Assembly (NCBI GenBank): GCA_012031875.1
Contig: JAAUSZ010000012.1
Location: forward strand, 1 to 39,751
Length of the DNA: 39,751 nucleotides
Origin: Desulfobacula sp.
GTDB taxonomy: Bacteria > Desulfobacterota > Desulfobacteria > Desulfobacterales > Desulfobacteraceae
Reading direction: 5' to 3'
Shown: one piece after another, positions 11,168-35,396 of the stretch
How the letters are laid out: every line of letters begins with the position of its first letter
How positions within the stretch are numbered: the first letter of the stretch is position 1
Program-made: the position numbers and the translations under genes
The notes under the pieces: generated by a model
The model's input: the letters and a program-made list of their open reading frames with translations, nothing else
The model's database searches: none
What the model was told of the DNA's origin: nothing

Positions 11168-11183
11168 TGGCACAGTCATTGCT
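11168..11183 (+). promoter_or_regulatory. Sigma-54 promoter of the triple-rhodanese operon
   Basis: TGGCACAGTCATTGCT matches the -24/-12 consensus TGGCACRNNNNTTGCW at every fixed position, with exactly 10 bases between GG (11169-11170) and GC (11181-11182). Transcription would start near 11194, giving a 5' leader of about 55 bases before the ATG at 11249. Confidence 0.85.
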
Positions 11184-11248
11184 CAAGGGATATGAACGGT
11201 TACAAGAAAGATTATTATACACCTAACCCTGGTAATAAAGGAGACCCC

Positions 11249-12384
11249 ATGAAAAACAACCTTACGAACATAATGGCTCTTGTGTTTCTCTCAGGGCTTT
11301 TGCTGCTGACGGGATGCGCTCCTGTCAAAACCGCGAAAACCGCCGAGACCGAAGACCGGTCATGGATGTTCCATGACATTGTGGATGCCGCTTTCGTCAA
11401 GGCCCACATGGACATTCCCATGCCCGCCAATGTCATGCTCATTGATTCACGGCCCTATAAAACAAAATTTATCCAGGGCCATATCTCCGGCGCTGTCAGT
11501 ATCCCGTTTTCAGAATTTGACCAGAAAACAAATCTTCTTCCGGAAGATAAAAGCGCTCTCCTGATCTATTACTGCGAAGGCGAAACCTGCAAACTCAGCC
11601 ATAATTCCGCCCGGAAAGCCGAAGCCCTGGGCTATAAAAATGTGAAGGTGTATTCCAAGGGATATCCGGAATGGGTTACCCTGAAAGGCCATTACCCTTC
11701 CGTCAGCGCAGAGCAGGTGGCCCTGATGATTTCCGAGAACAAGGCCCTGATTGTGGATTCCCGGCCAAAACAGGCCAAATACGACAAAGGGCACATCCCC
11801 ACGGCCGTCAACATCCCCGACACCCAGTTTGACGAATTCAAGGGCAAACTGCCCCGAGACGCAAAGACTCCAGTGGTCTTTTACTGCGGCGGCCTGGATT
11901 GCCCCTTGAGCCATAAATCAGCGAAAAAGGCCATTGAGATGGGATACACCGATGTGTCCGTGTTCAGCCAGGGCTATCCGGAATGGGAAAAACGCTATGG
12001 CGGGTCCGCCCCTGCCGTGGCGGCAAAATCCGGCGGAGTCGAAGGCGCCATAGACCTTGACCGTTTCGCCGGCATCCTGGCAAACAATCCCGAATCCATC
12101 CTGCTCGTTGATGTCCGTGATCCCGATGAATTCGCCAAGGGATCATTTAAAACCGCGGTCAATATCCCGGTGGAAAAGCTTGAGAAAAAAATCAACGACC
12201 TGCCCGAGGACAAACCCGTTGTCTTTGTCTGCACCACGGCGCCCGGAGCGGAGAGGCTTTTTATATGATAAAAGACTTGAAAAATTCCTTAAAAGAAGTG
12301 TACTATGTGGAGGCTGGCATCACCTTCAAAGGCGACGGCCAATACGAAATCAAAAAACCCAAAAAATCCGGATCAGATAAATAA
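11249..12384 (+). CDS. Lipoprotein with three rhodanese domains (one apparent frameshift)
   Basis: Corrected length is 378 residues. A lipoprotein signal (hydrophobic core then LLTGC, Cys23) anchors it in the periplasm. Three rhodanese-like domains follow. Each has the opening LIDSR / IVDSR / LVDVRD and the GHI..AV.IP (GS in the third) stretch. The active-site loops are YYCEGETCKLS, FYCGGLDCPLS and FVCTTGARSGE, so all three keep the catalytic cysteine. Loops one and two carry an extra cysteine. The third loop is restored by adding one G at 12238-12239, which carries the frame to TAA at 12382. I reject the in-frame ATG at 11192 because it lies at the predicted sigma-54 start site. AAGGAG precedes 11249. 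Inferred role: moving sulfane sulfur in the periplasm. It lies 15 bases before the next gene. Confidence 0.85.
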
Positions 12385-12399
12385 AAAAGGAGATCTTCC

Positions 12400-12750
12400 A
12401 TGTTTAAAAAATTAACCATCCTGTTTGCGGCAGCCCTGTTCATCCTTGTGTCCAATACCATGCTTTTTGCCTCCGAAGGCCCCGGCGGCAATGACAGAAA
12501 AGGCAAATACACCTATCGGAAAGTGTATAAATCCTGTTCAGAAGCCGGCCAGGTTGAGTCTGCAACTCCAAAAATCAGTCCCGCCGATAAAACCATGGCC
12601 CAATGGAAGGCGATTTTTGAGGCTAAGAAATTTAATGAATTCGGCTGCGAGCAGCATTGGACCGCCTTATCCGATGAGGATATCCTTGATATCTATTCAT
12701 ATTTTTACGGCCATGCCTCGGATTCCCCTTCGCCGGCCACATGCAAATAG
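12400..12750 (+). CDS. Exported cytochrome-c-like protein lacking the haem motif
   Basis: 116 residues with a signal peptide (MFKKLTILFAAALFILV...LFAS). The mature part looks like a small class I cytochrome c. KGKYTYRKVYKSCSEAG sits where such proteins have the CxxCH helix, then a helix with TMAQWKAIFEAKKF, and a C-terminal DEDILDIYSYFYGHASD, like the final cytochrome helix. The expected CxxCH is replaced by YKSCS (43-47), so covalent haem attachment in the normal way is not possible. Three cysteines remain (C46, C83, C115), which could form a disulfide or carry persulfide beside the rhodanese lipoprotein. The resemblance is my reading of the pattern, not a database match. It is second in the sigma-54 operon and is followed by a strong terminator. 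Confidence 0.6.
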   Translation: MFKKLTILFAAALFILVSNTMLFASEGPGGNDRKGKYTYRKVYKSCSEAGQVESATPKISPADKTMAQWKAIFEAKKFNEFGCEQHWTALSDEDILDIYSYFYGHASDSPSPATCK

Positions 12751-12757
12751 GCAATAA

Positions 12758-12786
12758 AAAAGGACGGGGATGCTCCCCGTCCTTTT
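12758..12786 (+). terminator. Intrinsic terminator after the rhodanese operon
   Basis: AAAAGGACGGGGA (12758-12770), loop TGC, TCCCCGTCCTTTT (12774-12786): a 13-bp perfect stem ending in TTTT. It lies between the haem-less protein and the octaheme cytochrome, so it either ends the first operon or trims read-through into the second. Confidence 0.85.
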
Positions 12787-12820
12787 CACCAGTTCATATT
12801 CCTTAACCATGGAGAAGCCT

Positions 12821-14451
12821 ATGAATAATAGAATCTTATTCAGTTACGGAACGGCTGCAACAGCGATTGCCGTCCTTTTGTGCGCTCTTTCCCCGGCCTT
12901 TGCATCCACGCCGGAAAAGGGCGAGGACGCTTTGGGAAGGCGTCTTGCCCGGCAGGCCGTGAAGGACAGCAAACCCTGGACCACCACGGACCACAAAAAG
13001 CAGAGGCCCTGAACAGGGATTTCACCTCCGGGGAAGAGATTTCCCGGGCCTGTATTTCCTGCCATTCGGAAGCCGCCGGCCAGTTCCACAAGACCATTCA
13101 CTGGACCTGGCTGGCATCTGAAGACAAAACGGACCGCCGCTACGGCAAGGCCGGGTTTTCCGTGAACAATTTCTGCATCTCCGCCAATGCCATGGAGGAT
13201 AAGGGCTGCCTGAGCTGTCATCCCGGATGGAGCCAGAAGGGGGTCCAGGGTGAGGTCAATTGCCTGAAATGCCACAACTCATCCGGGTTTAATTTTGAAG
13301 AGGCCCTCACCGACATCCGATCCTTTTTAAAAGATGACGACCCCGAAGCCCATGAAATGGCAAAAGATCTCCAGCAGGAGATCAGGACTGCGGTCACCCA
13401 GGTGACCTTTCCCAATCGTAAAAACTGTGGGGACTGCCATTTTACCGGCGGCGGCGGCGACGGGGTGAAGCACGGGGACCTGGACACCTCTCTGACCAAA
13501 CCCAACCGCATGCTGGATGTGCATATGGGAACCGACGGGAAAAATTTCACCTGCACCCGGTGTCATACCACGGCGGAACACCATATTGCCGGGCGGATTT
13601 ATACCAACCCGGCTGTTGAATCCAGGAAAAGCCTCATCGAAGATGACCTGGCCCCGAAGATCACCTGCGAATCCTGCCACAGCGCCATGCCCCACAAGAA
13701 TGATTCCAAGATGAATGACCATACGGATGTGGTTTCCTGCCAGGCCTGCCATATTCCCAGTTTTGCCCGGGTGAATCCCACCATGATGTCCTGGGACTGG
13801 TCCAAGGCGGGAAAGATGAAGGACGGCAAACCCTATATCGAGGACGGCGAATTCGGGAAACCCGTGTATAAGACCATCAAAGGGGAATTCAAATGGGAAA
13901 AGAACGTGATCCCGGAATATTTCCGGTTCAACGGGTCTTTGACCAGCACCACGGCCGACGACATCATTGATCCCGGGAAAATTGTGGAGGTCAGCCGTCC
14001 GGTAGGGGACAAATCCGATCCCCAGACCCGCATCTTTCCCTTTAAAATCCACCGGGGAAAACAGCCCTACGACAAGGTCCACAACAAACTGCTGGCCCCT
14101 GTGCTTTCGGGACCCAAGGGATTCTGGACCACCCTGGACATGAATGACGCCATCGAGCGGGGCAATAAGGCCCTCGGCCTGCCCTATTCCGGCCAATTTG
14201 ATTATGTGGAGACCACCTATGCCGTGCCCATCACCCATATGGTGGCGCCCAAGGAAAACGCCCTGGCCTGCACGGAATGCCATATCCGGGAAACCTCCCG
14301 GCTGGCCGGGATCACGGACCTGTACATGCCGGGCCGGGACCGGTTCCGCCTGGTGGATACCATCGGATGGGTGTCTGTTCTCGGCGCCTTTGTGGCTGTC
14401 CTGCTGCACGGGCTGGGCCGGTTTTTCATGCGTAACGGCAAGGAGGATTAA
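12821..14451 (+). CDS. Octaheme c-type cytochrome, tetrathionate reductase family, membrane-anchored (one apparent frameshift)
   Basis: Corrected length is 543 residues. Signal peptide at 1-29. Eight CxxCH motifs start at about C78, C130, C148, C203, C245, C283, C307 and C484. The family also has a long haem-free stretch between motifs seven and eight and a C-terminal membrane helix (IGWVSVLGAFVAVLLHGLG). This matches the octaheme OTR family, whose Shewanella member reduces tetrathionate, nitrite and hydroxylamine in vitro; the true substrate here is not known. The first 60 residues are in another frame. One extra A in the A5 run at 12995-12999 joins DHKK to AEALNRDF. Start ATG 12821 has GGAGA five bases upstream. 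The next gene, a cytochrome b, begins one base after its stop, which implies electron input from quinol. Confidence 0.88.
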
Positions 14452-15096
14452 ATGACGGATCAAAAAACCATCAAAATCTATCTGTATACCCGGTTCGAAC
14501 GGCTCTGGCACTGGTTCCAGGCCGCGGTGGTCATCACGCTCATCATCACCGGCCTGGAAATCCACGGCGCCTATTCTTTCCTGGGATTTAAAACCGCGGT
14601 CCGGGTCCATAATTATATCGGCCTGACCTGGCTCACCCTGTTTGCCTTTTTTGTTTTCTGGCTGTTCACCACCGGAGAATGGAGGCAATATATCCCCACC
14701 ACCAAAAGGCTTTTTTCCGTGGTCCGCTATTATGCCTGGGATATTTTTCAGGGCAAGCCCCATCCGGTCCAGAAATCAACCCATGCAAAGCATAATCCCC
14801 TGCAGAGGCTGGCCTATCTGGGCATTTCCGCCATGCTTTTGCCGGTGCAGATGGCGACCGGGCTTTTATATTATCTTTACAATCATCTCCAGGGAGTGCT
14901 CCCGCTTTCCGTTCTTGCCGGGATCCACACCCTGGTCGCTCTTTTCCTCCTGAATTTTCTGATCATCCACCTTTATATGATCACTACGGGACATTCCGTC
15001 CTGGGGCATATTGCGGGCATGGTCACGGGCTGGGAAGAAGTCACCGACACCACGGCCATTGAAGACTGGGAAACCAAGGCTGTCAGAAAAACTTAA
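14452..15096 (+). CDS. Membrane cytochrome b subunit (b561 / thiosulfate reductase type)
   Basis: 214 residues with four to five membrane helices. Candidate haem b histidines lie in RLWHWFQ (helix 1), VRVHNYIGL (helix 2), and IHTLVAL plus IIHLYMITTGHS in the last helices. This pattern fits the Ni/Fe-hydrogenase/thiosulfate-reductase cytochrome b family. It starts directly after the octaheme cytochrome stop, with the ribosome site AAGGAGG inside that gene's end, so the two are translationally coupled. Expected role: quinol oxidation at the membrane and electron transfer to the octaheme protein. It could also work in reverse. A hairpin follows at 15100-15140, and the cydAB promoter lies 195 bases downstream. 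Confidence 0.85.
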   Translation: MTDQKTIKIYLYTRFERLWHWFQAAVVITLIITGLEIHGAYSFLGFKTAVRVHNYIGLTWLTLFAFFVFWLFTTGEWRQYIPTTKRLFSVVRYYAWDIFQGKPHPVQKSTHAKHNPLQRLAYLGISAMLLPVQMATGLLYYLYNHLQGVLPLSVLAGIHTLVALFLLNFLIIHLYMITTGHSVLGHIAGMVTGWEEVTDTTAIEDWETKAVRKT

Positions 15097-15099
15097 AAA

Positions 15100-15140
15100 A
15101 TTTCCCCTGCGGGAGCAGCTCCGGCTTCTGCAGGGGAAAT
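15100..15140 (+). terminator. Probable terminator hairpin after the cytochrome b gene
   Basis: ATTTCCCCTGC (15100-15110) and GCAGGGGAAAT (15130-15140) form an 11-bp perfect stem starting 4 bases after the stop. The loop holds a second small inverted repeat. There is no strong T-tract, so it may protect mRNA or terminate weakly. Confidence 0.55.
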
Positions 15141-15290
15141 ACCTGTCTCACTTAAACAATACAACAGTGTTTCATTTTTTTGCCTTCCGGCTGTCTCAAA
15201 AACAAAAATCCTGCTTGCCATCCCTTGTAAAATCCGGTAATGTGCTGATATTTATAGCCCAATAATTAAATTTTTCTTTCTTTTCACCCA

Positions 15291-15306
15291 TGGCATATGA
15301 ATTGCT
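15291..15306 (+). promoter_or_regulatory. Sigma-54 promoter of cydAB
   Basis: TGGCATATGAATTGCT: GG at 15292-15293, 10 bases, GC at 15304-15305. It matches TGGCAY-N5-TTGCW. Predicted start near 15317, about 62 bases ahead of the cydA ATG. Confidence 0.75.
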
Positions 15307-15378
15307 TTTTTTCCCAAAAAAGTAATCTATGAATTTTGTAACAGTATCAGGCTAAAACAGTATTAAGTGGAGGGATTT

Positions 15379-16685
15379 ATGGATCCGGTTTTTCTGTCAA
15401 GACTGCAATTTGCCGCAGCCACCATGTTCCATTTTCTTTTTGTGCCGCTGACCCTTGGGATTTCCATCATTATCGCCTATATGGAAACAAAATACGCACG
15501 AACAGGGATACGGTATATCTGAGAATGACCAAATTCTGGGGCAAGCTTTTTCTCATTAATTTCGCCCTGGGGGTGGTCACGGGCATCACCCTTGAATTCC
15601 AGTTCGGCACCAACTGGTCCAGGTATTCCGAGTATGTGGGGGATGTGTTCGGGTCCCTGCTGGCCATTGAAGCTTCCGTGGCCTTTTTTCTCGAATCCAC
15701 CTTCATCGGCATCTGGATTTTCGGTTGGAAAAAAATGTCGGCCAAGGCCCATGCCGGCGTCATGTGGGTGGTGGCCGCGGCCGGGAACATCTCCGGCATC
15801 TGGATTCTGACTGCCAACGGGTTTATGCAGAACCCCGTGGGATACGCCCTGCGCAACGGCAGGGCCGAGCTGACCGATTTTTTTGCCGTTCTTTTCAATT
15901 ATAACAGCATCCTTCAAATCCTCCATGTCCTTCCCTCGGCCCTTGTTCTTTCCGCATTCTTCATCATGGGCATCTCTGCCTACCACCTTTTGAAAAAACA
16001 GCATGTGGATGTTTTCATGCGATCCTTTAAAATGGCTTTGCCCGTTGCCGCAGCGGGCTCGATTTTTGTCGCTCTGATCGGTGATTTCCACGGCGTGAAT
16101 GTGGCCAAAACCCAGCCCGCGAAACTGGCCACCATGGAGTCCCACTGGGAGACCCAGACCCGGGCCCCCATTATCATGTTTGCCCTTCCCGATGAAGAAC
16201 TGGAAAAAAACACCATTGAGATCCTTCCCCTGCCCGGCCTCTTAAGCTTTCTGGGATTCCACGATTTCAACGCGGCGGTCAAGGGGCTCAAAGATATTCC
16301 CAGGGATGAACGTCCTCCGGTTCTGCCGGTCTTTGTCGGATTCAGAACCATGGTGGGCATCGGGACCCTTCTGATCCTTATCAGTGTCTACGGCTGGTTC
16401 AAGAGGAACAAACTCATGGAAAGCCCGGGATATCTGAAATTAATCATGTTCTGCATCCCCCTTCCCTATCTTGCCATTGAAATGGGCTGGATGGTGACGG
16501 AAGTGGGCCGCCAGCCCTGGATTGTCTACGGAGTTTTGAAAACCGCGGAGGCTGCCTCGCCCATTGCAGCCGGCCAGGTCCTGTTCTCCCTGATCGGTTT
16601 CATCCTGGTCTACGGCCTTCTAGGCGCCATCGGATTCTACCTTATTGTTCAAAATGCCAAAAAAGGCCCTGAGACTGCACATTAA
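15379..16685 (+). CDS. cydA: Cytochrome bd quinol oxidase subunit I (one apparent frameshift)
   Basis: Oxidises quinol and reduces O2 to water. Corrected length is 435 residues, the short (short-Q-loop) form. Visible features are the N-terminal [21 protein letters not shown] with H18, equivalent to the haem b595 ligand. [25 protein letters not shown] and FFLESTF follow in the first half. The quinol-site region is [12 protein letters not shown], and later [12 protein letters not shown] gives the GRQPW signature. The first 45 codons end early at TGA 15520. Adding one G to GGG at 15505-15507 restores [19 protein letters not shown] lies six bases before the ATG. With cydB it forms a sigma-54-preceded unit, followed by rubredoxin. 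In an anaerobe this most likely serves O2 removal and protection, as known for Desulfovibrio and related genera. Confidence 0.95.
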
Positions 16686-16708
16686 CCAAAAAATACAGGA
16701 GTGATGAT

Positions 16709-17736
16709 ATGGAACTTCAATCGATATGGTTTTTTTTATGGGGACTCTTATGGGCTGTGTTTTTCATGACCGACGGCTTTGATTTCGGAGTGGGGACCCT
16801 TTACCCTTTTCTCGGAAAAACAGACCAGGACAAACGGATCATGATCAATTCCATCGGCCCCCTGTGGGACGGCAATGAAGTCTGGCTTCTGACGGCCGGC
16901 GGGGTCACTTTTGCCGCCTTTCCCAAGGTCTATGCCGTCATGTTTTCCTCCCTTTACACCCCGTTGATGCTGATCCTGTTCGCCCTCATTTTCAGGGGGG
17001 TGGCCTTTGAATTCAGGGGAAAAATCAACGGCGAGGGCTGGAAAAACTCTGGGATACCTTTATCTTCCTAGGCAGCTTTCTGCCGGCCCTTCTTTTCGGA
17101 GTGGCCTTTGCCAATATTTTCCAGGGCATCCCCTTTGACGACCAGGGCATCTATCACGGCAATACCCTAAAACTCCTGAATCCCTACGGACTTCTGGGCG
17201 GACTCCTGTTTGTCCTGCTGTTTCTCCAGCACGGGGCCAACTGGCTCAATATCCGGACCAGGGGGGAGCTTCAACAGAGAGCCATTGCCGTATCCCAGAA
17301 AATCTGGCTTATTCTTGTGCCGGTAGCTGTGATTTTTCTTGCAGCCTCTTATTTTGCCACGGACCTTTATGCCAATTATTTCAAAACCCCGGCCCTGTTC
17401 CTGGTCATCCTGGTCACCGTGGCCGCGCTTTTCGCGACCCGAATCTTTATTGCAAAGCAGCAATTTTTCAAAGCCTGGTTTGCCTCGGCCCTGACCATTG
17501 TGGGAGCTACTTTCTTCGGAATCATCGGGCTTTTCCCCAGGTTGTTTCCCTCCAGCATGGACATCAATTTCTCCCTGACCGCCTTTAACGCCTCATCCAG
17601 CCCCCTGACATTGAAAATCATGCTGGGGGTGGTCCTGGTCTTCATCCCCCTGGTCATCATCTACCAGGCCTGGTCCTATCATTTTTTCAGGCATCCGATG
17701 ACCCGGGAGGACCTGGATCTGGAAGACGCATATTAA
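16709..17736 (+). CDS. cydB: Cytochrome bd quinol oxidase subunit II (one apparent frameshift)
   Basis: Corrected length is 342 residues with eight membrane helices. It opens with QSIWFFLWGLLWAVFFMTDGFDFGVG, the CydB signature where the acidic pair in TDGFDFG is conserved. It continues with GPLWDGNEVWLLTAGGVTFAAFP and RGVAFEFRGK. The frame breaks in the A5 run at 17042-17046. One more A gives GWKKLWDTFIFLGSFLPALLFGVAFANIFQG and restores the rest. It starts 23 bases after cydA. Together they form the haem-bearing bd oxidase; CydB stabilises the complex. No CydX-like small ORF was recognised in the 54 bases between cydB and the rubredoxin gene. Confidence 0.95.
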
Positions 17737-17790: not shown

Positions 17791-17949
17791 ATGGACAGAT
17801 ATGTTTGCGGACCCTGCGGCTATGTGTATGACCCGGCAGACGGAGATCCGGACAACGGCATTGATCCGGGAACCAGCTTCAAAGACCTTCCCGAAGACTG
17901 GTGCTGCCCCATCTGCGGAGCCTCAAAAGAGGATTTTGAAAAAGAATAG
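17791..17949 (+). CDS. Rubredoxin
   Basis: 52 residues, a complete single-iron rubredoxin. The two cysteine pairs are [10 protein letters not shown] and CCPICGA, with the conserved [15 protein letters not shown] between them. AAAAGGAG lies 7 bases before the ATG. It follows cydB by 54 bases, probably on the same transcript, and ends with a terminator at 17964-17999. Rubredoxins carry electrons to oxygen- or superoxide-reducing enzymes such as flavodiiron protein, rubrerythrin and superoxide reductase, all of which lie 11-14 kb away. It is close to the second rubredoxin at 29182 but differs at the first pair (CGPC against CSIC) and has CC before PIC. Confidence 0.95.
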
Positions 17950-17963
17950 GAATTGATATGGCG

Positions 17964-17999
17964 GGCCGGGCTGAATACTCTTTTTTGCCCGGCCTTTTT
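17964..17999 (+). terminator. Intrinsic terminator after rubredoxin
   Basis: GGCCGGGC (17964-17971) and GCCCGGCC (17987-17994) pair around a 15-nt loop and are followed by TTTTT (17995-17999). It lies between the rubredoxin stop and the next gene start. Confidence 0.8.
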
Positions 18000-18017
18000 A
18001 TGTCCCAAGGAAGACCC

Positions 18018-18830
18018 ATGGCCCTTTCCGTTGTCGATCTCTATACCCGGGTATTGCCCAGGACCAATTGCAGGGACTGCGGATACCCCACCTGCCTTGC
18101 CTTTGCAGGCATGGTGGTATCCCAGCGCCATCCCCTGAAGAACTGCCCCCATATTGACCCGGATGTATTGCCATGGGCTCTGAGCGAGCTTGAAGAGCAA
18201 TATAAACAGGGCAAATGGCTGAAAAAAGACATGGCCAAAGAGGCCCTTGAATGGGCAAAACAAAGGGCGGCTTCCATAAAACCGGAAGATATCGCCCCCC
18301 GGATCGGCGGGACATTCATCCGGGCCGGAGAAAAGGGAACGATTCTTCTCCCCTGCTTTGACCGCCGGCTCTCCATCACCATGGAGGGGGTGCGGGATGA
18401 ATCCGGACGGGAACTGAGCCAAAATGAACAAACCTTTGTCTATATCCACATGGCCCGGGGGGGCGACTCCAAGCCCACCGGGAAAATGAAAAGCCTGAAG
18501 GAATTTCCCAACACCGTATCCAAGATCGTCACCCTGCGGGAACGGGTTGAAACCCCTCTGAAAAATACCTTTTCCGAAGACCCGGCCGCGCTTTTTGCAG
18601 CCTGTAAAAAAATCCGCGGCATTGATGTGCAAAATCAATATCCATCCTGTGACCTTGCCTTTCAATTCCATGCCTTTCCAAAGGTTCCGGTGGTCCTTTT
18701 ATTCTGGAAGGCCGCGGACGGGTTTGAGGCCGATGTAAAACTTCTCTTTGACGAAACCATCCTCCAACACCTGGACATTGAGGCCATCCTGTTTCTAAGC
18801 GAGCATCTTTGCCGCATACTGACGGCTTGA
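18018..18830 (+). CDS. Fe-S domain plus DUF3786 protein
   Basis: 270 residues from ATG 18018. I prefer this start because AAGGAAG precedes it and the earlier ATG at 17958 would lie inside the terminator. Residues 5-50 form a small Fe-S domain with TNCRDCGYPTCLAFA and a fourth cysteine in KNCPHI, the CxxCx4C...C pattern of the 4Fe-4S family in corrinoid and RnfB-type proteins. The rest is DUF3786, including GTFIRAGEKGTILLPCFDRR, FVYIHMARGGDSKPTGKMKSLKEFPN and the closing LPFWK-like VVLLFWKAADGFEADVKLLFDET. Such proteins are common in Desulfobacterota and near methyl-transfer genes, but their function is unknown. Here it sits alone between rubredoxin and a carrier gene. Confidence 0.8.
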   Translation: MALSVVDLYTRVLPRTNCRDCGYPTCLAFAGMVVSQRHPLKNCPHIDPDVLPWALSELEEQYKQGKWLKKDMAKEALEWAKQRAASIKPEDIAPRIGGTFIRAGEKGTILLPCFDRRLSITMEGVRDESGRELSQNEQTFVYIHMARGGDSKPTGKMKSLKEFPNTVSKIVTLRERVETPLKNTFSEDPAALFAACKKIRGIDVQNQYPSCDLAFQFHAFPKVPVVLLFWKAADGFEADVKLLFDETILQHLDIEAILFLSEHLCRILTA

Positions 18831-27590: not shown

Positions 27591-28964
27591 CTATCGTCCC
27601 AGGATGTGTCTCAATGCCGGGACAAGTGTCTCATGATGGTATGAAAATCCGCTATCCAGAAGCTTTTCCGGTTTAACCCGGGCGCTTGCCAAAAGGGTTT
27701 CCTGTCCCATTTCCCCCCCACAACAGCCGGGCCGGAAGCACGGGGAACCTGAAAAATACTTTTCTGGAAAAGATTTTTGCCAGGGTGTTGGAAAACTCCC
27801 GGTTTGTGACCGGATTGGGCGCGGTCAGGTTTACAGGCCCTTGGATGGCCTCTGTGTTTAAAATATGGAGGATACCGGATACGGCGTCATCCATGCTGAT
27901 CCAGCTCATATACTGCCTGCCGTGGGAAAGCGTCACTCCGCAACCGGCTTTAAACGGCAGGACCATCCTGGCCAGGGCGCCTCCTGCAGGGGTAAGAACA
28001 ATCCCGATCCTGAGCTGAACCGTTCGGATTCCGGCCGTCTCCGCTTCCTTGGCCTCATCCTCCCATTGTTGACAGACCCGAGAAATGAAGCAATGGCCCG
28101 GGGCCGAAGATTCCGTTAAAACCCTGTCTTCCCCTTCCCCGTAAAAACCGATGGCCGACGATGAAATAAAGATGCCGGGCTTGTGCTTCAGGGCTTTCAT
28201 CTTTTCCACAAGAAGCCGGGTGGGCATGATCCTTGAGTCCAGGATCTTTTTTTTCTGCTCCTGGGTCCACCTCCCCCTTGAAATATCCAGCCCGTTTAAA
28301 TTGATGACGGCGTCGATGGGGCCTGCCGATTCCAGGTCGAGATCTCCCTTGTAAGGATCCCAGAAAAGCTCGTCCTTCTGCAGGCCGTCTTTTTTGCGGA
28401 CAAGCCGGATCACCTCATGGCCGCGGGTTTGCAAAAATGGAACAAGGGCGCTGCCGATGGTGCCGCTTGCGCCGGAAACAAGGATTCTTTTTTTTCGGCA
28501 TATCCCCTGAATAGTGTTCAAGGTCGTATTTGAGTACCCTGTGGCGGTAACTGAACATCCGGTCGAATTCTTTTTCAGCGAATCCGTAGAAAGGCCTGCT
28601 TAAAAATCCAAAAGGCAGCTTGAATTCCACCCGGTCTTCCATCACCATCCCGGATTCCCCGTCGGAATGAAAGCAGTGGGTATGCTCCCACTTTGCAAAG
28701 GGTCCTTTGAGCTGGACATCCTTGAATTCCCGGTTTTCTTTATAATCTGTATGTTCGGCCACCCAGGGCAGGGGAAGGTTGAACATGCGGATCTGAAAGG
28801 TCACCCTGACCCCTTTTTGAATCCCTTCCCCCACGCGGGAGATGAGTTTCAGGGCGCCCAGGGAGGAGTCAGCCTGGCGATGGCCCCGTTTCTTTTATGC
28901 CATGAAAAACCGTCTCAACCCGCGCATGGATCTTTGTCTTTTTTATAAAGATTTTGCTCTTCAT
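27591..28964 (-). CDS. SRPBCC-NAD(P)-epimerase fusion, TIGR01777 type (four apparent frameshifts)
   Basis: Corrected length is about 457 residues. The N-terminal 150 residues are an SRPBCC (START-like) domain: HARVETVF, then IARLTPPWAPLKLISRVGEG and the closing RVLKYDLEHYSG. The rest is a short-chain dehydrogenase-like epimerase: RILVSGASGTIGSALVPFL (nucleotide site), NLNGLDI, SSSAIGFYG, and a TIGR01777 C-terminus GEMGQETLLASARVKPEKLLDSGF. Both domains are known to occur fused. Indels break it at 28884-28887 and 28852-28854 (one base missing each), in the run of eight at 28488-28495 (one extra) and in the run of seven at 27713-27719 (one extra). Correcting all four gives one reading frame of exact codon length. 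The substrate is unknown. Start 28964 has AAGGG upstream. Confidence 0.78.
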
Positions 28965-29070
28965 GGACAGCCCTTAAAAATAATTCATTCATTGATTTTG
29001 CAGGCCTTATACTATAATAATAATTTTTAAGTTTAAACCCTTTTTATCAGCAAGGGTTTTATTATTTTCA

Positions 29071-29086
29071 AGGCACATTCTTTGCA
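29071..29086 (+). promoter_or_regulatory. Sigma-54 promoter of the rubredoxin-FprA-rubrerythrin operon
   Basis: AGGCACATTCTTTGCA: GG at 29072-29073, 10 bases, GC at 29084-29085. It matches TGGCAC-N5-TTGCW except for A at the first base. Predicted start near 29097, about 85 bases before the rubredoxin ATG. An AAACCCTT/AAGGGTTT inverted repeat lies upstream (29035-29059). Confidence 0.7.
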
Positions 29087-29100: not shown

Positions 29101-29181
29101 GGTTTTTTTAGCCTGGATGTGCGCGTAGGTGTGAATTATTAATACTGATCTATTAACCGGTTAATTTTTGGAGGATTGAAT

Positions 29182-29343
29182 ATGAGTAAATATGAATGCA
29201 GTATATGCGGTTATGTGTACGACCCTGCCAACGGCGACCCGGACAACGGCATCGCTCCGGGAACTTCCTTTGAAGCCCTGCCGGAGGACTGGGTATGCCC
29301 CCTTTGCGGAGCTGCCAAGGAAAATTTTGAAAAAATGGATTGA
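29182..29343 (+). CDS. Rubredoxin (FprA-linked)
   Basis: 53 residues, complete. Cysteine pairs [10 protein letters not shown] and CPLCGA, with the [15 protein letters not shown] bridge. TTGGAGG lies seven bases before the ATG. It is first in the operon rubredoxin-FprA-rubrerythrin-like, 25 bases ahead of FprA. In Desulfovibrio gigas the flavodiiron enzyme takes electrons from rubredoxin encoded beside it, so this is probably the direct donor. Compared with the rubredoxin at 17791 it shares most surface residues. Confidence 0.95.
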
Positions 29344-29368
29344 TACTCAAACAGGGAGGCCATAAAAA

Positions 29369-30565
29369 ATGTACAAACCCATTGAAATAGCGGACAGGAT
29401 CTATTCCGTCGGGTGCCGCGACTGGGATATCAGGGATTTTCATGGGTATTCCACCTATGAGGGAACAACTTACAATGCATTCCTGGTGCTTGGCGAAAAA
29501 AACATCCTCATTGATACGGTCAAAGAAAAATTCGGGGATGAGCTTATTTCCAATATCAGCAGGATCATCGACCCTAAAAAAATCGATATCCTCATCAGCA
29601 ATCATACGGAAATGGATCACTCCGGCGCCATCCCCAAGGTGCTTGAGATCATTGGAAGCGATAAACCCCTGTATTGTTCAAAAATGGGGGCAAAAAACCT
29701 GAAAAGCCATTTTAACCGGGATTTTAATTTCAAGGTGGTGGGAACCGGGGACGAACTGAAAACCGGGGACAGGACCTTTTCCTTTCTTGAGACAAAAATG
29801 CTTCACTGGCCGGACAGCATGTTCACCTATCTTGTGAACGACGCTGTCCTGTTTTCCAGTGACGCGTTTGGGCAGCACTATTCCGGGGATAAATTCTTTG
29901 ATGATGAAATCGGAGATGAAATCATCCCCCATGCCAGGAAATATTACGCCAATATCCTGCTTCATTTCTCCCCCAGGGTTCAGGCCCTGCTGAAGGATGT
30001 GGCCAAAATGAACCTGAAGCTGAACATGATCTGCCCGGATCACGGTATCATCTGGAGGGACAATCCTTCCAAGATCATTGAGGCCTACGACAAATGGTCC
30101 AGACAGGAACCGGCGAAAAAAGCGGTCGTGATTTTTGATTCCATGTGGGAGAGTACCACAAAGATGGCCAGGGCCGTCACCAGCGGCATAGAATCCGAAG
30201 ATGTGCATGTCAGGCTCATGAATACCCGGAAATGGCACAGGAGTGATATCATGACCGAAATCATAGACGCCGGCGCCATTGCCGTGGGCTCCCCTACCCT
30301 GAACAACAGTATTTTCCCCGTTATTGCAGACGTCATGACCTATATCAAGGGCCTCCGGCCCCAGAATAAAATTGCAGCGGCCTTTGGGTCCTATGGATGG
30401 AGCGGGGAGGCCGTCAATATCCTGAACAAGGAATTTGCCGAAATGAAGCTGGATATCATTGACGAAGGCGTAAAAGTTCAATATGTTCCGGATGAGGAAG
30501 ATCTGAACCGATGTTTTGATCTGGGTGTAAAAATAGCAAAAACACTAAAGGAAAGGTTATCATAA
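29369..30565 (+). CDS. fprA: Flavodiiron protein, rubredoxin:oxygen (or NO) oxidoreductase, FprA/Roo type
   Basis: 398 residues, the usual two-domain length. The N-terminal metallo-beta-lactamase-like domain holds the diiron ligands at H79, E81, D83, H84 (NHTEMDHSG), H146 (LHWPDS), D165 (SSDAFGQ) and H225 (CPDHGIIW), close to the D. gigas ROO numbering. The C-terminal flavodoxin domain from about 250 has the FMN loop SMWESTTKMA and SYGWSGEAV. No extra rubredoxin or reductase domain, so electrons come from a separate rubredoxin. It reduces O2 to water and may reduce NO; sequence alone does not tell the preference. It lies between rubredoxin and a rubrerythrin-like protein behind a sigma-54 promoter. 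Confidence 0.95.
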   Translation: MYKPIEIADRIYSVGCRDWDIRDFHGYSTYEGTTYNAFLVLGEKNILIDTVKEKFGDELISNISRIIDPKKIDILISNHTEMDHSGAIPKVLEIIGSDKPLYCSKMGAKNLKSHFNRDFNFKVVGTGDELKTGDRTFSFLETKMLHWPDSMFTYLVNDAVLFSSDAFGQHYSGDKFFDDEIGDEIIPHARKYYANILLHFSPRVQALLKDVAKMNLKLNMICPDHGIIWRDNPSKIIEAYDKWSRQEPAKKAVVIFDSMWESTTKMARAVTSGIESEDVHVRLMNTRKWHRSDIMTEIIDAGAIAVGSPTLNNSIFPVIADVMTYIKGLRPQNKIAAAFGSYGWSGEAVNILNKEFAEMKLDIIDEGVKVQYVPDEEDLNRCFDLGVKIAKTLKERLS

Positions 30566-30590
30566 ATAAACGGATAACCCGGAGGAAAGC

Positions 30591-31064
30591 ATGACAAACG
30601 AATTTAATGCAGATGATATATTTGAAATGGCCGTAAAAATTGAGCAGAACGGCGCGGTGTTTTATAGGGAGGCCGCCGGTCAGGTTGAAGGAAAGAAAAA
30701 TCAGGATTTTCTTTTGGAACTTGCCCGGATGGAGGATGAGCATGGAGTTGTTTTTTCCAACCTGAAAAAAGAATTGACAGCACAGGAAAAAATCACGACA
30801 ACTTTTGATCCCGAAGATGAAAACATTCTTTATCTGAATGCCTTTGCCGATTCAAAGGTGTTTTTCAAAAAAGAAAAACCGGACAACAGCTTTAAAAACA
30901 TTTTGCACTGCGCCATCCAGACGGAAAAGGATTCCATTGTCTTTTATCTGGGTATTAAGGAACTGGTTCCGGAAAAATACGGCCGGTCAAAAATAGACGC
31001 CATTATCAAAGAAGAAATGGGTCATATCAGGCTTCTTGCAGGCAAATTGGCCGAACTTTATTGA
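30591..31064 (+). CDS. Rubrerythrin-like diiron protein without rubredoxin domain
   Basis: 157 residues, a four-helix ferritin-like domain. Diiron ligand candidates are in EMAVKIEQNGAVFYREAA (helix 1), EDEHG (helix 2), QTEKDSIVFYLGIKE (helix 3) and KEEMGHIRLL (helix 4). The usual C-terminal rubredoxin domain of rubrerythrin (two CxxC) is absent, so it must receive electrons from another rubredoxin, such as the operon's own. Expected role: peroxide reduction. It is the third gene of the operon (25 bases after FprA) and ends at a strong bidirectional terminator. Confidence 0.88.
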   Translation: MTNEFNADDIFEMAVKIEQNGAVFYREAAGQVEGKKNQDFLLELARMEDEHGVVFSNLKKELTAQEKITTTFDPEDENILYLNAFADSKVFFKKEKPDNSFKNILHCAIQTEKDSIVFYLGIKELVPEKYGRSKIDAIIKEEMGHIRLLAGKLAELY

Positions 31065-31080
31065 GTTTTATTGCTTGAAT

Positions 31081-31120: not shown

Positions 31121-31137
31121 CAGGAAAATAAAAAGGA

Positions 31138-31518: not shown

Positions 31519-31573
31519 TTAGTATCTCCTTTAGTTTAATGTTGAGGTTAGTAAATTCATATAATATTTAATA

Positions 31574-31611
31574 AAAAACAGACTTAAACCGCAGATCGCA
31601 AGCCTGTTTTT
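31574..31611 (-). terminator. Intrinsic terminator of the small minus-strand gene
   Basis: On the minus strand AAAAACAGGCTT (31611-31600) pairs with AAGTCTGTTTTT (31585-31574) through 12 pairs including one G-U, and a T-rich tail follows. It supports a real gene ending at 31643. Confidence 0.7.
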
Positions 31612-31642
31612 ATATTCAGAGAATATACCGTATATATCCAAT

Positions 31643-31855
31643 CTAAATCTTATTTGCCACAAAAAAATCCGGTTTTTTCATGTTCAATAAAATCCCGATC
31701 ATCCTTTGGGTCGATTCTTCTTCATCCTTTGTCACTGCCTTAAAAACAGAAGCCATCTGATAATAAATCTCATTTTGAGATCGGACGGCAAAATAAGAAT
31801 ACGCGGTAAGCGGTTTTTTCAGGCGATGCTGCTTCTCTTTTTTTGAACGAATCAT
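31643..31855 (-). CDS. Small basic protein of unknown function
   Basis: 70 residues, no recognised domain. Basic N-terminus (MIRSKKEKQHRLKKP), then an aromatic stretch LTAYSYFAVRSQNEIYYQMASVF and a C-terminal helix with DEEESTQRMIGILLNMKKPDFF. GGAGG lies 9 bases before the ATG and an intrinsic terminator follows, so it is probably expressed. No signal peptide, no cysteine. It stands alone upstream of dfx on the same strand. AT content is higher here than in the neighbouring genes. The stretch 31856-32160 upstream is AT-rich and holds only a doubtful 70-codon ORF on the other strand. Confidence 0.55.
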   Translation of the reverse strand: MIRSKKEKQHRLKKPLTAYSYFAVRSQNEIYYQMASVFKAVTKDEEESTQRMIGILLNMKKPDFFVANKI

Positions 31856-32160
31856 GGGTCATCCCTCCAGAATTTAAGTTTCCTGGAAATTTATACAGCA
31901 AACATCATACCAGATGATCAAAAAGCATCCATTCACCTGGAAGGCCTAAGGAAAAAGCGGCGAAAAATGAATGGAACCTATAAAAACAGATAAAACAAAA
32001 CGAGACAGCCCTGTCTCAAATATCGTATCCATTCCTCAAAAGAGCAAGACAACCCTGTACCAGGAGAAGCGAATGATAAAAAACTATAAAAAAGGCGATG
32101 TAACTCCAATCCAGATCATGTATCCTAACAGAAAAAAGATATATATTTCAAGTCCATATT

Positions 32161-33132
32161 TCAAAGCCGCCATTCTTTTCTGATTTCCTCCATGTGATCA
32201 ACCAGAATTCCCATATAGGTTTCTTCCATGTCAAGCATGATTTGGTCTTTTTTCCTAAGCCATTCCGACAGCCAGGCAAATCTCAAGGCCAACACGTATT
32301 CCGGGAAGAATCGCCGGCTTGTTTCGCTGATCACAGTCCTCTTTTGGATCTCTTCGAGAAAGGCCATGACCATGTCCATCCCCAGGCCGTTGGGATTTTC
32401 AATCCCGGCGCAGCCCACCAGATTGGCCGCGTCGTAAAGGTCCGGCTTGATTCCGGCAAATTCCCAGTCAATGACGGCCCTTATCTCATCCCTTTGCCAG
32501 ATGACATTCAAGGGATGCAGATCTCCGTGACAAAACCCGAGCGGCAGCCGATCATGGGCCTGCATAAACCCGGATTCAAGACATCCCAAAAAAGGCAGAA
32601 ATTTTTCATAGACCGGCCGGTCATGAATTTTCATTTCGCTGAACAGCTTGTAAATATAGGCTTTAAGGGAAAATAAAGGAAAGGACAAAACGCGTTCAAT
32701 TCCTTGGGAAGCCCTTTGCATCCGGGACAGAAACAAGGCAAAGCTTTTTCCCATGCCCGGTGAATCAAGATAGTCCGGTCTTTCCAGGGCTGCCCCCGCG
32801 AGGAAAGAAGAGAGCTGGAAGCAGGCTCCCCTGAAAAACGGCAGGAATTCCCCTTGATCCGATTTCCGGTATGGCAGGGCTTCAAAGAGCCCTTGCAGAT
32901 TCAGAAAATCAACCGCCTTTGCCACCTGATCCCGGACCTGAAATTTTTCTGCAGGGAATTTTTCAAGCAGGAAAAGCCTGCCGTCTCTGTCCTGAACCAC
33001 CACCCGGGATATGGTTCGCTCAGGACTGCCCTGAATCTCGATATCCTCCCGGACACATGGCAATTCAAGCCCCCATTGATCGTGAAGCCACTGAAGAAAT
33101 TCTCCCTTTGACGGGTCAGAGAATTCTTGCAA
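32161..33132 (-). CDS. Aminoglycoside-phosphotransferase-fold kinase (APH/CotS-like)
   Basis: 323 residues of the APH/choline kinase superfamily. The catalytic loop is FCHGDLHPLNVIW (HGDxxxxN) and the metal site VIDWEFAGIKPDLYDAA (DWE, then D). A long N-terminal lobe contains the weaker VVVQDRDGRLFLLEKF lysine region. Relatives phosphorylate small molecules such as choline, homoserine, sugars or antibiotics; this sequence does not point to one. The TTG start overlaps the end of the thioredoxin gene by 17 bases; no better start is near. It is the last gene of the minus-strand operon FMN dehydrogenase-flavodoxin-thioredoxin-kinase. Confidence 0.8.
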   Translation of the reverse strand: MQEFSDPSKGEFLQWLHDQWGLELPCVREDIEIQGSPERTISRVVVQDRDGRLFLLEKFPAEKFQVRDQVAKAVDFLNLQGLFEALPYRKSDQGEFLPFFRGACFQLSSFLAGAALERPDYLDSPGMGKSFALFLSRMQRASQGIERVLSFPLFSLKAYIYKLFSEMKIHDRPVYEKFLPFLGCLESGFMQAHDRLPLGFCHGDLHPLNVIWQRDEIRAVIDWEFAGIKPDLYDAANLVGCAGIENPNGLGMDMVMAFLEEIQKRTVISETSRRFFPEYVLALRFAWLSEWLRKKDQIMLDMEETYMGILVDHMEEIRKEWRL

Positions 33133-33557
33133 TGGCAGACTCCAGTTGTTCCCTGGGCAGGGCGCCCAGAAGGGTATCCATGATCCTGCCGTTTTTCACG
33201 AGAAACAGGGTGGGAACACTGGAAATGGAATATCTGGAACCGATTCCGGGGTTTTCATCCAGGTTCAGCTTGGCGATCTTCAGCCTTCCCTGATATTTTC
33301 CGCAAGCTGGTCAAGCACCGGCCCCACGGCCCGGCAGGGGCCGCACCAGGCGCCCAGCAATCCACCAGGACAGGGAGGGCTGACCCCAGTACCTCCCCGT
33401 CAAAGGTGGCATCCGTCACATTCACCGGCCGGCTTAAGGTTTCCTTTGGCAGAAGGGTTCCACATTTCCCGCATCTTGGGGTTTCATTCATCCGCGATAC
33501 CGGGACCCTGTTTTTTGCCGAACACTTTTTACACACCCATATCACACTGTCAGCCAT
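33116..33557 (-). CDS. trxC: Thioredoxin 2 (TrxC type) with N-terminal zinc ribbon (two apparent frameshifts)
   Basis: Corrected length is 147 residues, as for E. coli TrxC (139). The N-terminal zinc ribbon has VCKKC and RCGKC pairs (C9, C12, C29, C32). The thioredoxin domain begins at VNVTDATFDGEVLGS. As written the active site is scrambled. Adding one base at 33349-33350 restores WAPWCGPCRAVGPVLDQL. Adding one to the four-base run at 33296-33299 gives AEKYQGRLKIAKLNLDENP, and the rest reads to ISSVPTLFLVKNG (cis-Pro) and TGA at 33116. In an operon with flavodoxin and a flavin dehydrogenase; the FTR-like gene nearby on the other strand could be its reductase. Confidence 0.88.
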
Positions 33558-33570
33558 GATGGACCTTCCT

Positions 33571-34002
33571 TTACATCAATGCGGCAATACTCTTCCCATA
33601 GGCCTGGGCTGCCTGAATACCACCCTGGACCCAGCTCGCCTTGAGCATGAGGGGACCGGATACCATCTTCATTCCGTAAATATGCTCCATGGTATCGAAT
33701 ATCCTTCCGGGGGCTTCACCGCTCCACCCGTAGGCGCCAAAGGCCCCGCCGATTTTACCCTTCAATTCCGCCCGTTCCGCAATAAACAGGGTCTGTTTCA
33801 TGGAGGTGATCATCTCCCCGTGATAGGTGGCGGACCCAAAGGCATATCCGTCATATCCTTTTAAATCCTCTTCAGTTTTGATATCCCCGGTTTTTTTGAC
33901 CTCGGCCTCATGTCCTGAAATACGAACCCCTTCGGCAATCAGATCAGCTATTTTTTTGGTTTCTTCGGCCCTTGACGCATAAACGATCAATACTTTTCCC
34001 AT
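33571..34002 (-). CDS. Flavodoxin
   Basis: 143 residues, a short-chain flavodoxin or flavodoxin-like domain. N-terminal VLIVYASRAEETKKIADLI gives the FMN phosphate loop. YDGYAFGSATYHGEM and GGAFGAYGWSGEAPGRIF supply the two isoalloxazine loops. The last resembles the flavodoxin part of FprA (SYGWSGEA). Cytoplasmic electron carrier. It sits 13 bases after the FMN dehydrogenase and the same distance before thioredoxin 2, all on the minus strand. Confidence 0.9.
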   Translation of the reverse strand: MGKVLIVYASRAEETKKIADLIAEGVRISGHEAEVKKTGDIKTEEDLKGYDGYAFGSATYHGEMITSMKQTLFIAERAELKGKIGGAFGAYGWSGEAPGRIFDTMEHIYGMKMVSGPLMLKASWVQGGIQAAQAYGKSIAALM

Positions 34003-34015
34003 TTTTTTCTCCTGT

Positions 34016-35176
34016 TCAATCCTGGTTAAATAAAATTCTTGAACCTGCCATCTTCAGGTTTTTTGTCCCTGTCATAAACATGGCTTTTTTTAAGGTCTTA
34101 TGAACATGTTCCAGATGCAGTTTCACGCCCAGGGTCCCGGCTCCCACGGCGGCCCGGATGATGTCCCGGCCCAGAAGGACGGCATCCGCGCCCAGGGCCA
34201 GCATTTTTAAAACATCATACCCGGTTCTGATGCCTCCGTCCGCGGTGAGGATCACTGATTTCCCGACCTTTTTTCGGATCAGAGGCAAGACCGCAGCCAC
34301 GCCGGGCGTTGAATCCAGAACCCTTCCCCCATGGTTGGACACGGCAACGACACGAACCCCGGCATCAGCACATTTCTGAGCCTCTTCCGGCATCATGACG
34401 CCCTTGGCGATGAAAGGCAGCGAGGTAAACCGGACCAATTCCTCAATATCCCTGACGCTCTTTTTAAACACCGGCTGGCCTTGCCGGGCCATGATGGTGG
34501 ACCCGCACCCGTCCAGGTCCACGCCCACGGCCTTGCATCCATACTCCTGTGCGGTGTCGATGAGCGCTTTCAACACATCCTGGGACCTGGGTTTAAATAT
34601 GGGTATCCCGTAACCGTTACAGGCTTTCATGGCCTTAAGGGAGGGGTGGTTTTCCGGTGTATAAAACCAGGTATCCCCTCGGAGGCCTATGGTCCCGGCC
34701 TCCTTTGACCCTCTTAATACCGAGGTGCAGAACTGGGTTTCATCCAGGGCCTCATTGTATTTTTGGGCCCCTGCCGTGGAGGCCGCCAGCACCGGAAATT
34801 TAAGATCCACCCCGAGAAAGGAACAGGAGGTATCCGGTTCAAAATGGTCCCCCAATACCGACATATTAAACTGAACCCTGGCCAGGGCCTCCGCATTGGC
34901 CCGGAAGGATCTTCCCTGACCCGCGCCGCCAAGCCCGATGGGTTTTCCATAGGCCTCCCTCTGGCAGATTTTATCAAAATTGCCGTCACAGGACGGATAG
35001 GCTGCACAGATCCCCTTGAGTTTTGTCCTGGCCAGATCCCTGACCTGTTCCAGGCTTCCGGGGACATCTTCCATTCTCATGATCATCCGGTCATCGGCCC
35101 GGCAGATATCACAGGAAACAGGTTTGTTTTCAGCCTTTAATATCTCATGACAGACAGAGCAATACCATTGATTCAT
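34016..35176 (-). CDS. FMN-dependent alpha-hydroxy-acid dehydrogenase with N-terminal rubredoxin-like domain
   Basis: 386 residues. Residues 1-40 are a small metal ribbon with C6, C9, C22, C25 (WYCSVCH ... SCDICRADD), the CxxC-x12-CxxC spacing of the rubrerythrin-type rubredoxin domain. The rest is the FMN-dependent dehydrogenase barrel of the lactate/glycolate oxidase family. It shows PVLAASTAGAQKYNEALDE, GVDLDGCGSTIMARQ, LPFIAKGVMMPEEAQKCADAG and the signature VSNHGGRVLDSTPG, and ADGGIRTGYDVLKMLALGADAVLLGRD binds phosphate. A fused rubredoxin would offer electron exit to an FeS4 centre instead of oxygen. Substrate unknown, perhaps lactate. First gene of the operon, with a weak sigma-54-like site 128 bases upstream and the glutaredoxin operon divergent. 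Confidence 0.85.
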   Translation of the reverse strand: MNQWYCSVCHEILKAENKPVSCDICRADDRMIMRMEDVPGSLEQVRDLARTKLKGICAAYPSCDGNFDKICQREAYGKPIGLGGAGQGRSFRANAEALARVQFNMSVLGDHFEPDTSCSFLGVDLKFPVLAASTAGAQKYNEALDETQFCTSVLRGSKEAGTIGLRGDTWFYTPENHPSLKAMKACNGYGIPIFKPRSQDVLKALIDTAQEYGCKAVGVDLDGCGSTIMARQGQPVFKKSVRDIEELVRFTSLPFIAKGVMMPEEAQKCADAGVRVVAVSNHGGRVLDSTPGVAAVLPLIRKKVGKSVILTADGGIRTGYDVLKMLALGADAVLLGRDIIRAAVGAGTLGVKLHLEHVHKTLKKAMFMTGTKNLKMAGSRILFNQD

Positions 35177-35303
35177 TGATGATCTCCTTTTTTGATTGAG
35201 GCCCTGCCAAGAATATCATTCATTTCCGGTTTATCAAATCTGTTTCTCTGTTTTTTGGATTCATCGGGTTATTTATCCCTGACGGATCACGACACCATAA
35301 CTT

Positions 35304-35320
35304 AGCAAAATTCAGACCAA
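35304..35320 (-). promoter_or_regulatory. Possible sigma-54 promoter of the FMN dehydrogenase operon
   Basis: On the minus strand TGGTCTGAATTTTGCT: GG, 10 bases, GC, with a perfect TTGCT at -12 but C-to-T and other changes at -24. It would start near 35293, leaving a leader of about 117 bases. Weaker than the other four. Confidence 0.35.
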
Positions 35321-35380
35321 GGCGGTTAAGAATTATGACCGGGCCGGAATTGTTTTTTCTGTATTTTAAACTTGCAAATA

Positions 35381-35396
35381 TGGCATAAATCATGCA
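35381..35396 (+). promoter_or_regulatory. Sigma-54 promoter of the glutaredoxin-FTR-citrate synthase operon
   Basis: TGGCATAAATCATGCA: GG at 35382-35383, 10 bases, GC at 35394-35395. Only the first T of the -12 TTGC is changed to A. Predicted start near 35407, about 58 bases ahead of the glutaredoxin ATG. TTGCA/TGCAA arms flank the element. Confidence 0.6.

Follow-up and report, generated by a model that had tools for sequence, protein, structure and literature searches.

We analysed a 39,751-nucleotide stretch of Desulfobacula sp. DNA (contig JAAUSZ010000012.1, assembly GCA_012031875.1; hereafter the window), in which operons for oxygen, sulfur and thiol chemistry are preceded by sites of the sigma-54 type and lie near the gene for a one-component enhancer-binding protein (EBP), the local EBP. 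The initial annotation had joined four of these operons in one stress programme, with the local EBP and its cysteine-bearing PAS domain as the candidate sensor. Our best reading is that the sites belong to at least two sigma-54 circuits, perhaps four.

Sigma-54 sites and redox operons of the window

Gene content was assigned with Pfam and NCBIfam, and small rubredoxins by sequence reading and tblastn. The promoters and genes, including those of the glutaredoxin (grx) and ferredoxin-thioredoxin reductase (FTR) operon, are as follows.

9139..9154, minus strand: predicted sigma-54 promoter TGGCATGAACATTGCT, ahead of the thioredoxin-like gene; strict match
11168..11183, plus strand: predicted sigma-54 promoter TGGCACAGTCATTGCT, ahead of the triple rhodanese gene; strict match
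15291..15306, plus strand: predicted sigma-54 promoter TGGCATATGAATTGCT, ahead of cydAB; strict match
29071..29086, plus strand: predicted sigma-54 promoter AGGCACATTCTTTGCA, ahead of rubredoxin-FprA; GG-N10-GC in genus loci
35381..35396, plus strand: probable sigma-54 promoter TGGCATAAATCATGCA, ahead of glutaredoxin-FTR
8652..9074, minus strand: thioredoxin-like gene (Pfam Thioredox_DsbH/Thioredoxin_7); frame apparently shifted in the last third
9266..9625, plus strand: DsrE-like protein, weak match (TIGR03012, E 7e-4, below the cut-off); adjoins the EBP in some loci
9637..11004, minus strand: local one-component EBP (Pfam: cysteine-rich PAS, AAA+ with GAYTGA loop, Fis helix-turn-helix)
11249..12268, plus strand: triple rhodanese gene with lipoprotein-like start; three Pfam Rhodanese stretches
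12400..12750, plus strand: small protein with no assigned family, kept in the rhodanese operon of relatives; no match in Pfam or NCBIfam
12880..14451, plus strand: octaheme c cytochrome, tetrathionate reductase family (TIGR04315, 494.7 bits, cut-off 375); frame of the N-terminus ambiguous
14452..15096, plus strand: cytochrome b561-type membrane subunit (Pfam PF01292)
15380..17736, plus strand: cydA and cydB (Pfam PF01654, PF02322); a frame break splits each in the assembly
17791..18830, plus strand: rubredoxin and iron-sulfur (Fe-S)/DUF3786 protein, downstream of cydB
29182..31064, plus strand: rubredoxin, flavodiiron FprA and rubrerythrin-like protein (the last two by Pfam, the rubredoxin read from the sequence)
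35465..37930, plus strand: glutaredoxin, FTR beta, citrate synthase (frame break) and rubredoxin-DUF2231 (Pfam)

Frame-broken genes are many in this assembly. Within the window they lie at 8652-9074, 12770-13012, 15380-15525, 17071-17101, 27673-28834 and 36059-36580, and affect the thioredoxin-like gene, the octaheme cytochrome N-terminus, cydA, cydB, an SDR-type epimerase and citrate synthase; the breaks are probably sequencing or assembly indels.

The four sites named by the initial annotation were confirmed in sequence, position and GG-N10-GC spacing, and the genes behind them were those it had described: the three rhodanese stretches, cydAB, rubredoxin-FprA-rubrerythrin-like and glutaredoxin-FTR-citrate synthase. 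The distance to the ATG was 81 (rhodanese), 89 (cydA), 111 (fprA) and 84 (grx) bases from the first base of the 16-mer, and 66, 74, 96 and 69 bases, respectively, from its last base, so that the fprA site falls outside the annotated range of 58-85 bases by either measure. A fifth GG-N10-GC site, at 9154..9139 on the minus strand with the thioredoxin-like gene downstream, had been overlooked.

The strict sigma-54 pattern was defined as TGGCAY-N5-TTGCW and compared with its reversed form as a control over the 4.95-Mb genome. It occurred 40 times, compared with once for the control, and three of the 40 sites (9139, 11168 and 15291) lie in the window, all between 9139 and 15306. With up to one mismatch allowed, 286 sites were found versus 111 for the control. 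The fprA and grx sites belong to the class with exactly one mismatch (246 versus 110), so either of them, taken alone, could be a chance match; they were accepted because their GG/GC is conserved in the genus alignments. Loose matches (up to three mismatches) were not enriched in the window (143 found versus 175 expected); only strict or conserved sites therefore count. The genome carries one match to the rpoN DNA-binding domain and 36 EBP core matches above 180 bits among 55 rows, so that both sigma-54 and candidate activators are encoded.

Conservation of the promoters in relatives

The comparison of upstream regions in related genomes, which the initial annotation had suggested, was run and revealed that the sites are conserved. 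A scan of 413 relatives for the local EBP kept 80 loci, of which 39 with at least 67% identity were treated as orthologs; the other 41 were set aside, although three of them (45-48%) were also printed. The 39 loci come from Desulfobacula, Desulfotignum, Desulfospira and assemblies named to higher rank only, and two of the loci, L040 and L044, are contigs of one assembly. In a cultured relative, Desulfospira joergensenii DSM 10085 (L028), the local EBP is present together with both the rhodanese and the thioredoxin promoter. Across the window and these 39 loci, a strict site was present upstream of the rhodanese gene in 35 of the 36 loci having the gene, upstream of the thioredoxin gene in 31/35 and upstream of cydA in 16/18. 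For fprA, 30 loci were fetched; GG-N10-GC was kept in 19/19 genus loci, and the pattern was found in 0/11 more distant ones. The grx site was present in 18 of the 22 genus loci; two of the others, L160 and L167, are truncated where their contigs stop, the site of L169 is nearer the gene than the search window, and L168 is without one. The grx pattern was found in 0/8 more distant loci. GG/GC is the only invariant pair of dinucleotides at 12-base spacing in the 18 aligned grx upstream regions, and one of two such pairs in the 19 aligned fprA regions.

Two loci, L010 (3048-5372) and L011 (3721-5505), carry behind a strict site and in the same place cydAB genes only about 40% identical to those of the window, as does L027 (3134-5390), where the site is weaker. 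The oxidase genes of these loci look as though they had been exchanged in situ while the earlier control was retained.

Upstream of the fprA promoter lies one further conserved feature.

29007..29023, plus strand: AT-rich element TTATACTATAATAATAA, 64 bases upstream of the fprA promoter

This near-palindrome occurs with 0-3 mismatches and at a nearly fixed distance in 18/19 genus fprA loci, and once in the window where 0.08 copies are expected; we take it to resemble a Fur/PerR-type box. Such strong conservation, together with the presence of TGGTATAAAT before grx in several relatives, would fit a housekeeping reading, in which TGGTATAAAT is an extended -10 element, the grx site and perhaps the fprA site are not sigma-54 promoters, and fprA is driven from the TTATACTATAATAATAA region. 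However, the GG and TGCA of the grx site are invariant in 18/18 aligned regions, whereas the -10-like hexamer varies (CACAAA, CCTAAA and TATGAA among the forms), and GG/GC is invariant in 19/19 fprA regions, which makes the housekeeping reading unlikely. A box common to fprA and rubrerythrin was considered and left unassigned, with a match at up to three mismatches in 4/29 rubrerythrin loci.

Taken together, GG/GC at 10-base spacing in a TGGCAY/TTGC context is conserved ahead of these operons, most weakly for grx. The footprint supports the view that the sites behave as conserved sigma-54 promoters, from which we infer the use of sigma-54 itself.

Two dyad classes upstream of the promoters

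Candidate activator sites of two kinds were recognised in the window.

11020..11062, strand not assigned: array of GTTAAC-type half-sites, candidate local-EBP sites, between the EBP and the rhodanese gene
15158..15173, strand not assigned: dyad AATACAACAGTGTTTC, 133 bases ahead of the cydA promoter; candidate site for a second EBP, whose gene lies on contig C84

The first array contains an exact RTTAACAN4RTTAAC at 11041-11057. Dyads were counted with common definitions over 300 bases upstream, one fprA and one grx region being shorter. The GTTAAC dyad was present in 22/35 rhodanese and 14/31 thioredoxin regions and in 0/16 cydA, 0/19 fprA and 0/18 grx regions. The cydA-type dyad, GAWACA-N4-TGTWTC, was present in 11/16 cydA regions, in 0/35 rhodanese, 0/31 thioredoxin and 0/19 fprA regions, and in 1/18 grx regions, this lone copy being the window's own, 266 bases away in a neighbouring coding gene. 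Forty dinucleotide shuffles gave a mean of at most 0.15 dyads per class. Neither dyad type was conserved in the 19 fprA and 18 grx regions.

These counts bear directly on the single programme of the initial annotation, under which every promoter answers to the local EBP, linking bd oxidase, the flavodiiron enzyme, thiol reductases and sulfur chemistry. In its favour, the operons do adjoin here, many of the loci have cydAB after the rhodanese operon, and every operon has a sigma-54 promoter. But sites of a common activator were not found at all target promoters: the GTTAAC dyad was confined to the rhodanese and thioredoxin promoters, cydA has a different conserved dyad, and the 36 strong EBP core matches leave many other candidate activators. 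We therefore rejected the single programme, which we regard as very improbable, and with it the proposal that the local EBP senses for the whole set. Because the control sites beside the promoters differ, several separately switched circuits are indicated instead.

The local EBP shows the features of an NtrC-type one-component activator (PF00158, PF02954 and PAS), the loops found among the candidate activators being GAYTGA and GAFSGA. Its PAS cysteines 50, 55, 58, 70 and 83 are invariant in 38/38 aligned rows. A cysteine-rich PAS domain was also read from the sequences of at least two other EBPs of the genome, so the local EBP is not exceptional in this respect, and the cysteines are a lead on the signal only.

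The exact GTTAAC dyad occurred at 38 distinct places in 38 whole genomes. For 15 of these, an EBP gene is no more than about 600 bases away: the window has one such place, genome G016 has two, arranged as in locus L001, and the remaining 12 are in nine re-read genomes, where the adjacent EBPs are 52-80% identical to the local EBP. One more place adjoins a thioredoxin-like gene (G007), and another adjoins p124-rhodanese homologs in a different family (G023). A candidate second GTTAAC target on contig C340 was discarded, since its dyad lies within a long open reading frame (ORF).

A second cysteine-PAS activator and the cydA-type dyad

The EBP on contig C84 (locus L181) is a second cysteine-PAS EBP of the genome and carries a cydA-type dyad at its own start. 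Using the dyad as defined on cydA and allowing one mismatch, we found it at the C84 EBP in 14/21 genus loci (13 at the start and one 95 bases upstream); three more loci had two mismatches, and four were without it. For the protein alignment, 24/27 loci passed the length and identity filter, and PAS cysteines 78, 87, 91 and 94 were invariant in 25/25 rows.

Outside the genus, orthologs of 52-57% identity were read in seven genomes. The ortholog shares its stretch with rubrerythrin, desulfoferrodoxin, cydAB, rubredoxins and FprA in G023, with rubrerythrin, desulfoferrodoxin and FprA in G027, and with cydAB in G035; in G030, G031 and G036 it lies about 3 kb or less from glutaredoxin-FTR, and in the 5.8 kb read in G026 no query gene was near it. 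The dyad, with up to one mismatch, lies in or beside the stretch from EBP to target in G023, G027 and G035. The glutaredoxin-FTR operon of G017 (L184, 1016-2102) is headed by a rubrerythrin gene that has an exact dyad as well as a sigma-54-like site.

We propose, tentatively and with somewhat less than even confidence, that the C84-type EBP is the oxygen or redox switch across an order of sulfate reducers, driving bd oxidase and, in other families, rubrerythrin, desulfoferrodoxin and FprA, while its sister, the local EBP, switches the periplasmic sulfur operon. If this is true, an anaerobe would run oxygen respiration through sigma-54. No description of a C84-type EBP was found in the open literature.

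A wider role, in which the C84-type EBP is the oxygen regulator of all but the rhodanese and thioredoxin operons and reaches fprA and grx through degenerate sites, appears doubtful. The orthologs do share a stretch with cydAB, FprA, rubrerythrin or glutaredoxin-FTR in 6/7 genomes outside the genus, and the G017 operon points the same way; against this stand the dyad counts within 300 bases at up to one mismatch, namely none in the 19 fprA regions and, in the 18 grx regions, only the window's own copy in coding DNA.

Several candidate members of the cydA-type circuit were examined and excluded. Rubrerythrin as a general member was ruled out, as described below. On contig C18, an exact dyad lies about 395 bases from a one-mismatch sigma-54 site and within an ORF, and the one-mismatch dyad near an EBP on contig C179 lies within a long ORF. 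At L260 (2380-2565, genome G003), an intergenic exact dyad lies about 100 bases ahead of TGGCACAAAACTTGTA, behind which stands a lipoprotein-like gene with a DTSSSM motif, possibly a further target.

Weighing the evidence

A number of observations weigh against a reading in two circuits. The genomes are related and the two panels overlap, so the counts are not independent: seven of the nine re-read genomes were already in the local-EBP panel (G014=L004, G022=L006, G003=L027, G001=L032, G002=L029, G009=L011 and G006=L005), and re-reading newly contributed only the whole-genome specificity, G008 and the other families in G035 and G023. The upstream regions used for counting the dyads also served to define them, which makes the within-class counts partly circular, but not the separation between classes. 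As defined, the dyads are missing in 13/35 rhodanese, 17/31 thioredoxin and 5/16 cydA regions, and the window's own thioredoxin promoter has no GTTAAC dyad, although its closest relative, L001, does. Twenty-one of the 38 GTTAAC places lie elsewhere, and the ten that were read, including that on C340, had none of the query genes.

The cydA-type dyad also has weaknesses. At one mismatch it was not enriched in its own genome (46 versus 39 for the control), and of five exact copies without assignment that were read in relatives, four fall in coding DNA. A prediction failed: among the 29 rubrerythrin loci with enough upstream sequence (of 30 fetched), the dyad with a sigma-54 site was found in one, the query itself. 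The sigma-54-like sites that follow the dyad in G023, G027 and G035 lack the C of the -12 element. Seven genus genomes have a copy 35-90 bases ahead of the exonuclease III gene (exoIII), where no sigma-54 site was seen, so some of the dyads may be recognised by a different regulator. The exoIII copies are at L247 3029-3044, L248 3005-3020, L249 2714-2729, L250 3051-3066, L251 1524-1539, L252 2898-2913 and L262 2341-2356, and a degenerate copy lies near 38747 in the window.

The strict sites elsewhere in the genome were also surveyed. Nine of the 37 outside the window lie within an ORF longer than 250 amino acids on some frame, so some strict sites may be due to chance. A rule-based guess at the first gene, obtained for 36 of the 37 (none for L096), was scanned against Pfam; 27/36 had a family at E 1e-5, and 9/36 had no match. 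The families comprised ammonium transporters, FliL, an FlgEFG-type protein, FlgN, TauE permeases, GlnD and kinases, along with PEP-CTERM proteins, 4Fe-4S proteins, NifU_N, iron alcohol dehydrogenase, an EBP and others. None of the 27 matched first genes was a bd oxidase, flavodiiron, rubrerythrin, rhodanese or glutaredoxin gene. As the first genes are mostly flagellar, ammonium-related, transport or signalling genes or without assignment, sigma-54 is not a general redox regulator here, nor is it tied to oxygen defence across the genome. In a separate cluster, L106 (2129-13778; G000, C251), five strict sites fall within about 10 kb, ahead of CBS, universal stress, cytidylate-kinase-like and response-regulator-CBS genes and of unassigned ones.

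On balance, we lean towards sigma-54 promoters in at least two circuits, the first comprising the local EBP and GTTAAC, and the second the C84 EBP and GAWACA at cydAB.

Proposed mechanism

In the proposed mechanism, each operon would wait under closed sigma-54 polymerase until an ATP-driven EBP, bound about 100-200 bases upstream, opens the promoter. In the first circuit, the local EBP would bind GTTAAC dyads and activate the divergently oriented operon for the rhodanese, octaheme cytochrome and cytochrome b, as well as the thioredoxin-like gene in relatives. Its PAS cysteines may be the sensor of a sulfur or redox signal, possibly by means of an Fe-S cluster or thiols on these residues. The position of the GTTAAC array between the EBP start and the rhodanese promoter suggests that the local EBP may also repress itself.

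In the second circuit, GAWACA-N4-TGTWTC dyads would turn on cydAB, most likely through the C84 EBP, the direction of the response being predicted in both circuits. Since the dyad also lies at the start of the C84 EBP gene, this EBP may act back negatively on itself, a loop already published for DVU2106 (PMC3897727). The fprA and grx operons have conserved predicted sigma-54 promoters with other upstream elements and may respond to other activators; within the genus, fprA showed no link to any EBP.

Comparison with known systems

To our knowledge, the timing of oxygen-removing enzymes in sulfate reducers is poorly known. A conserved predicted sigma-54 promoter, a defined dyad and a candidate activator linked to oxygen defence make this timing directly testable for cydAB, and the window shows that similar promoters on adjacent redox operons do not imply a common regulator. 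High EBP numbers have been reported in Desulfobacteria (PMC12316311), in a paper whose available portion contains no mention of cydA, rubrerythrin, flavodiiron, rhodanese or cytochrome bd. By the terms looked up, sigma-54 is not mentioned in the available part of oxygen-stress work on sulfate reducers (PMC11451228), and among titles and opening lines of abstracts in the open literature we found no paper on sigma-54 control of cydAB or of these operons in sulfate reducers.

A search against NorR gave 333.3 and 323.3 bits (NF003451) for the two EBPs, below the cut-off of 476. In this they are unlike NorR of Escherichia coli, an EBP that drives the flavodiiron gene of norVW from a sigma-54 promoter and senses nitric oxide with its GAF domain. 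The activator DVU2106 was presumably the one later named OrpR, with an Fe-S PAS domain; compared with it, the local and C84 EBPs have five and four invariant PAS cysteines, respectively, and cluster binding is putative. According to the part of the source available, DVU2106 of the orp system has palindromic sites, sigma-54 targets and a site on its own promoter that gives a negative loop (PMC3897727). Palindromic sites, sigma-54 targets and a site over the EBP's own promoter are likewise predicted here, whereas the targets described for DVU2106 are operons with a putative role in cell division rather than bd oxidase or sulfur genes.

Among published regulons, the nearest is DVU3142-ohcBAC of Desulfovibrio vulgaris (PMC4641369), described in a text whose available portion does not mention oxygen, rubrerythrin, rhodanese or thioredoxin. 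The operon here differs in starting with a triple rhodanese gene and in that a thioredoxin-like gene seems to join; an ohcB-like Fe-S gene was not recognised in it, and the comparison is one of arrangement. In that arrangement, as far as the available part of PMC4641369 describes it, the two systems agree: a one-component EBP stands divergent from a sigma-54 operon that encodes a periplasmic octaheme cytochrome and a haem b membrane protein.

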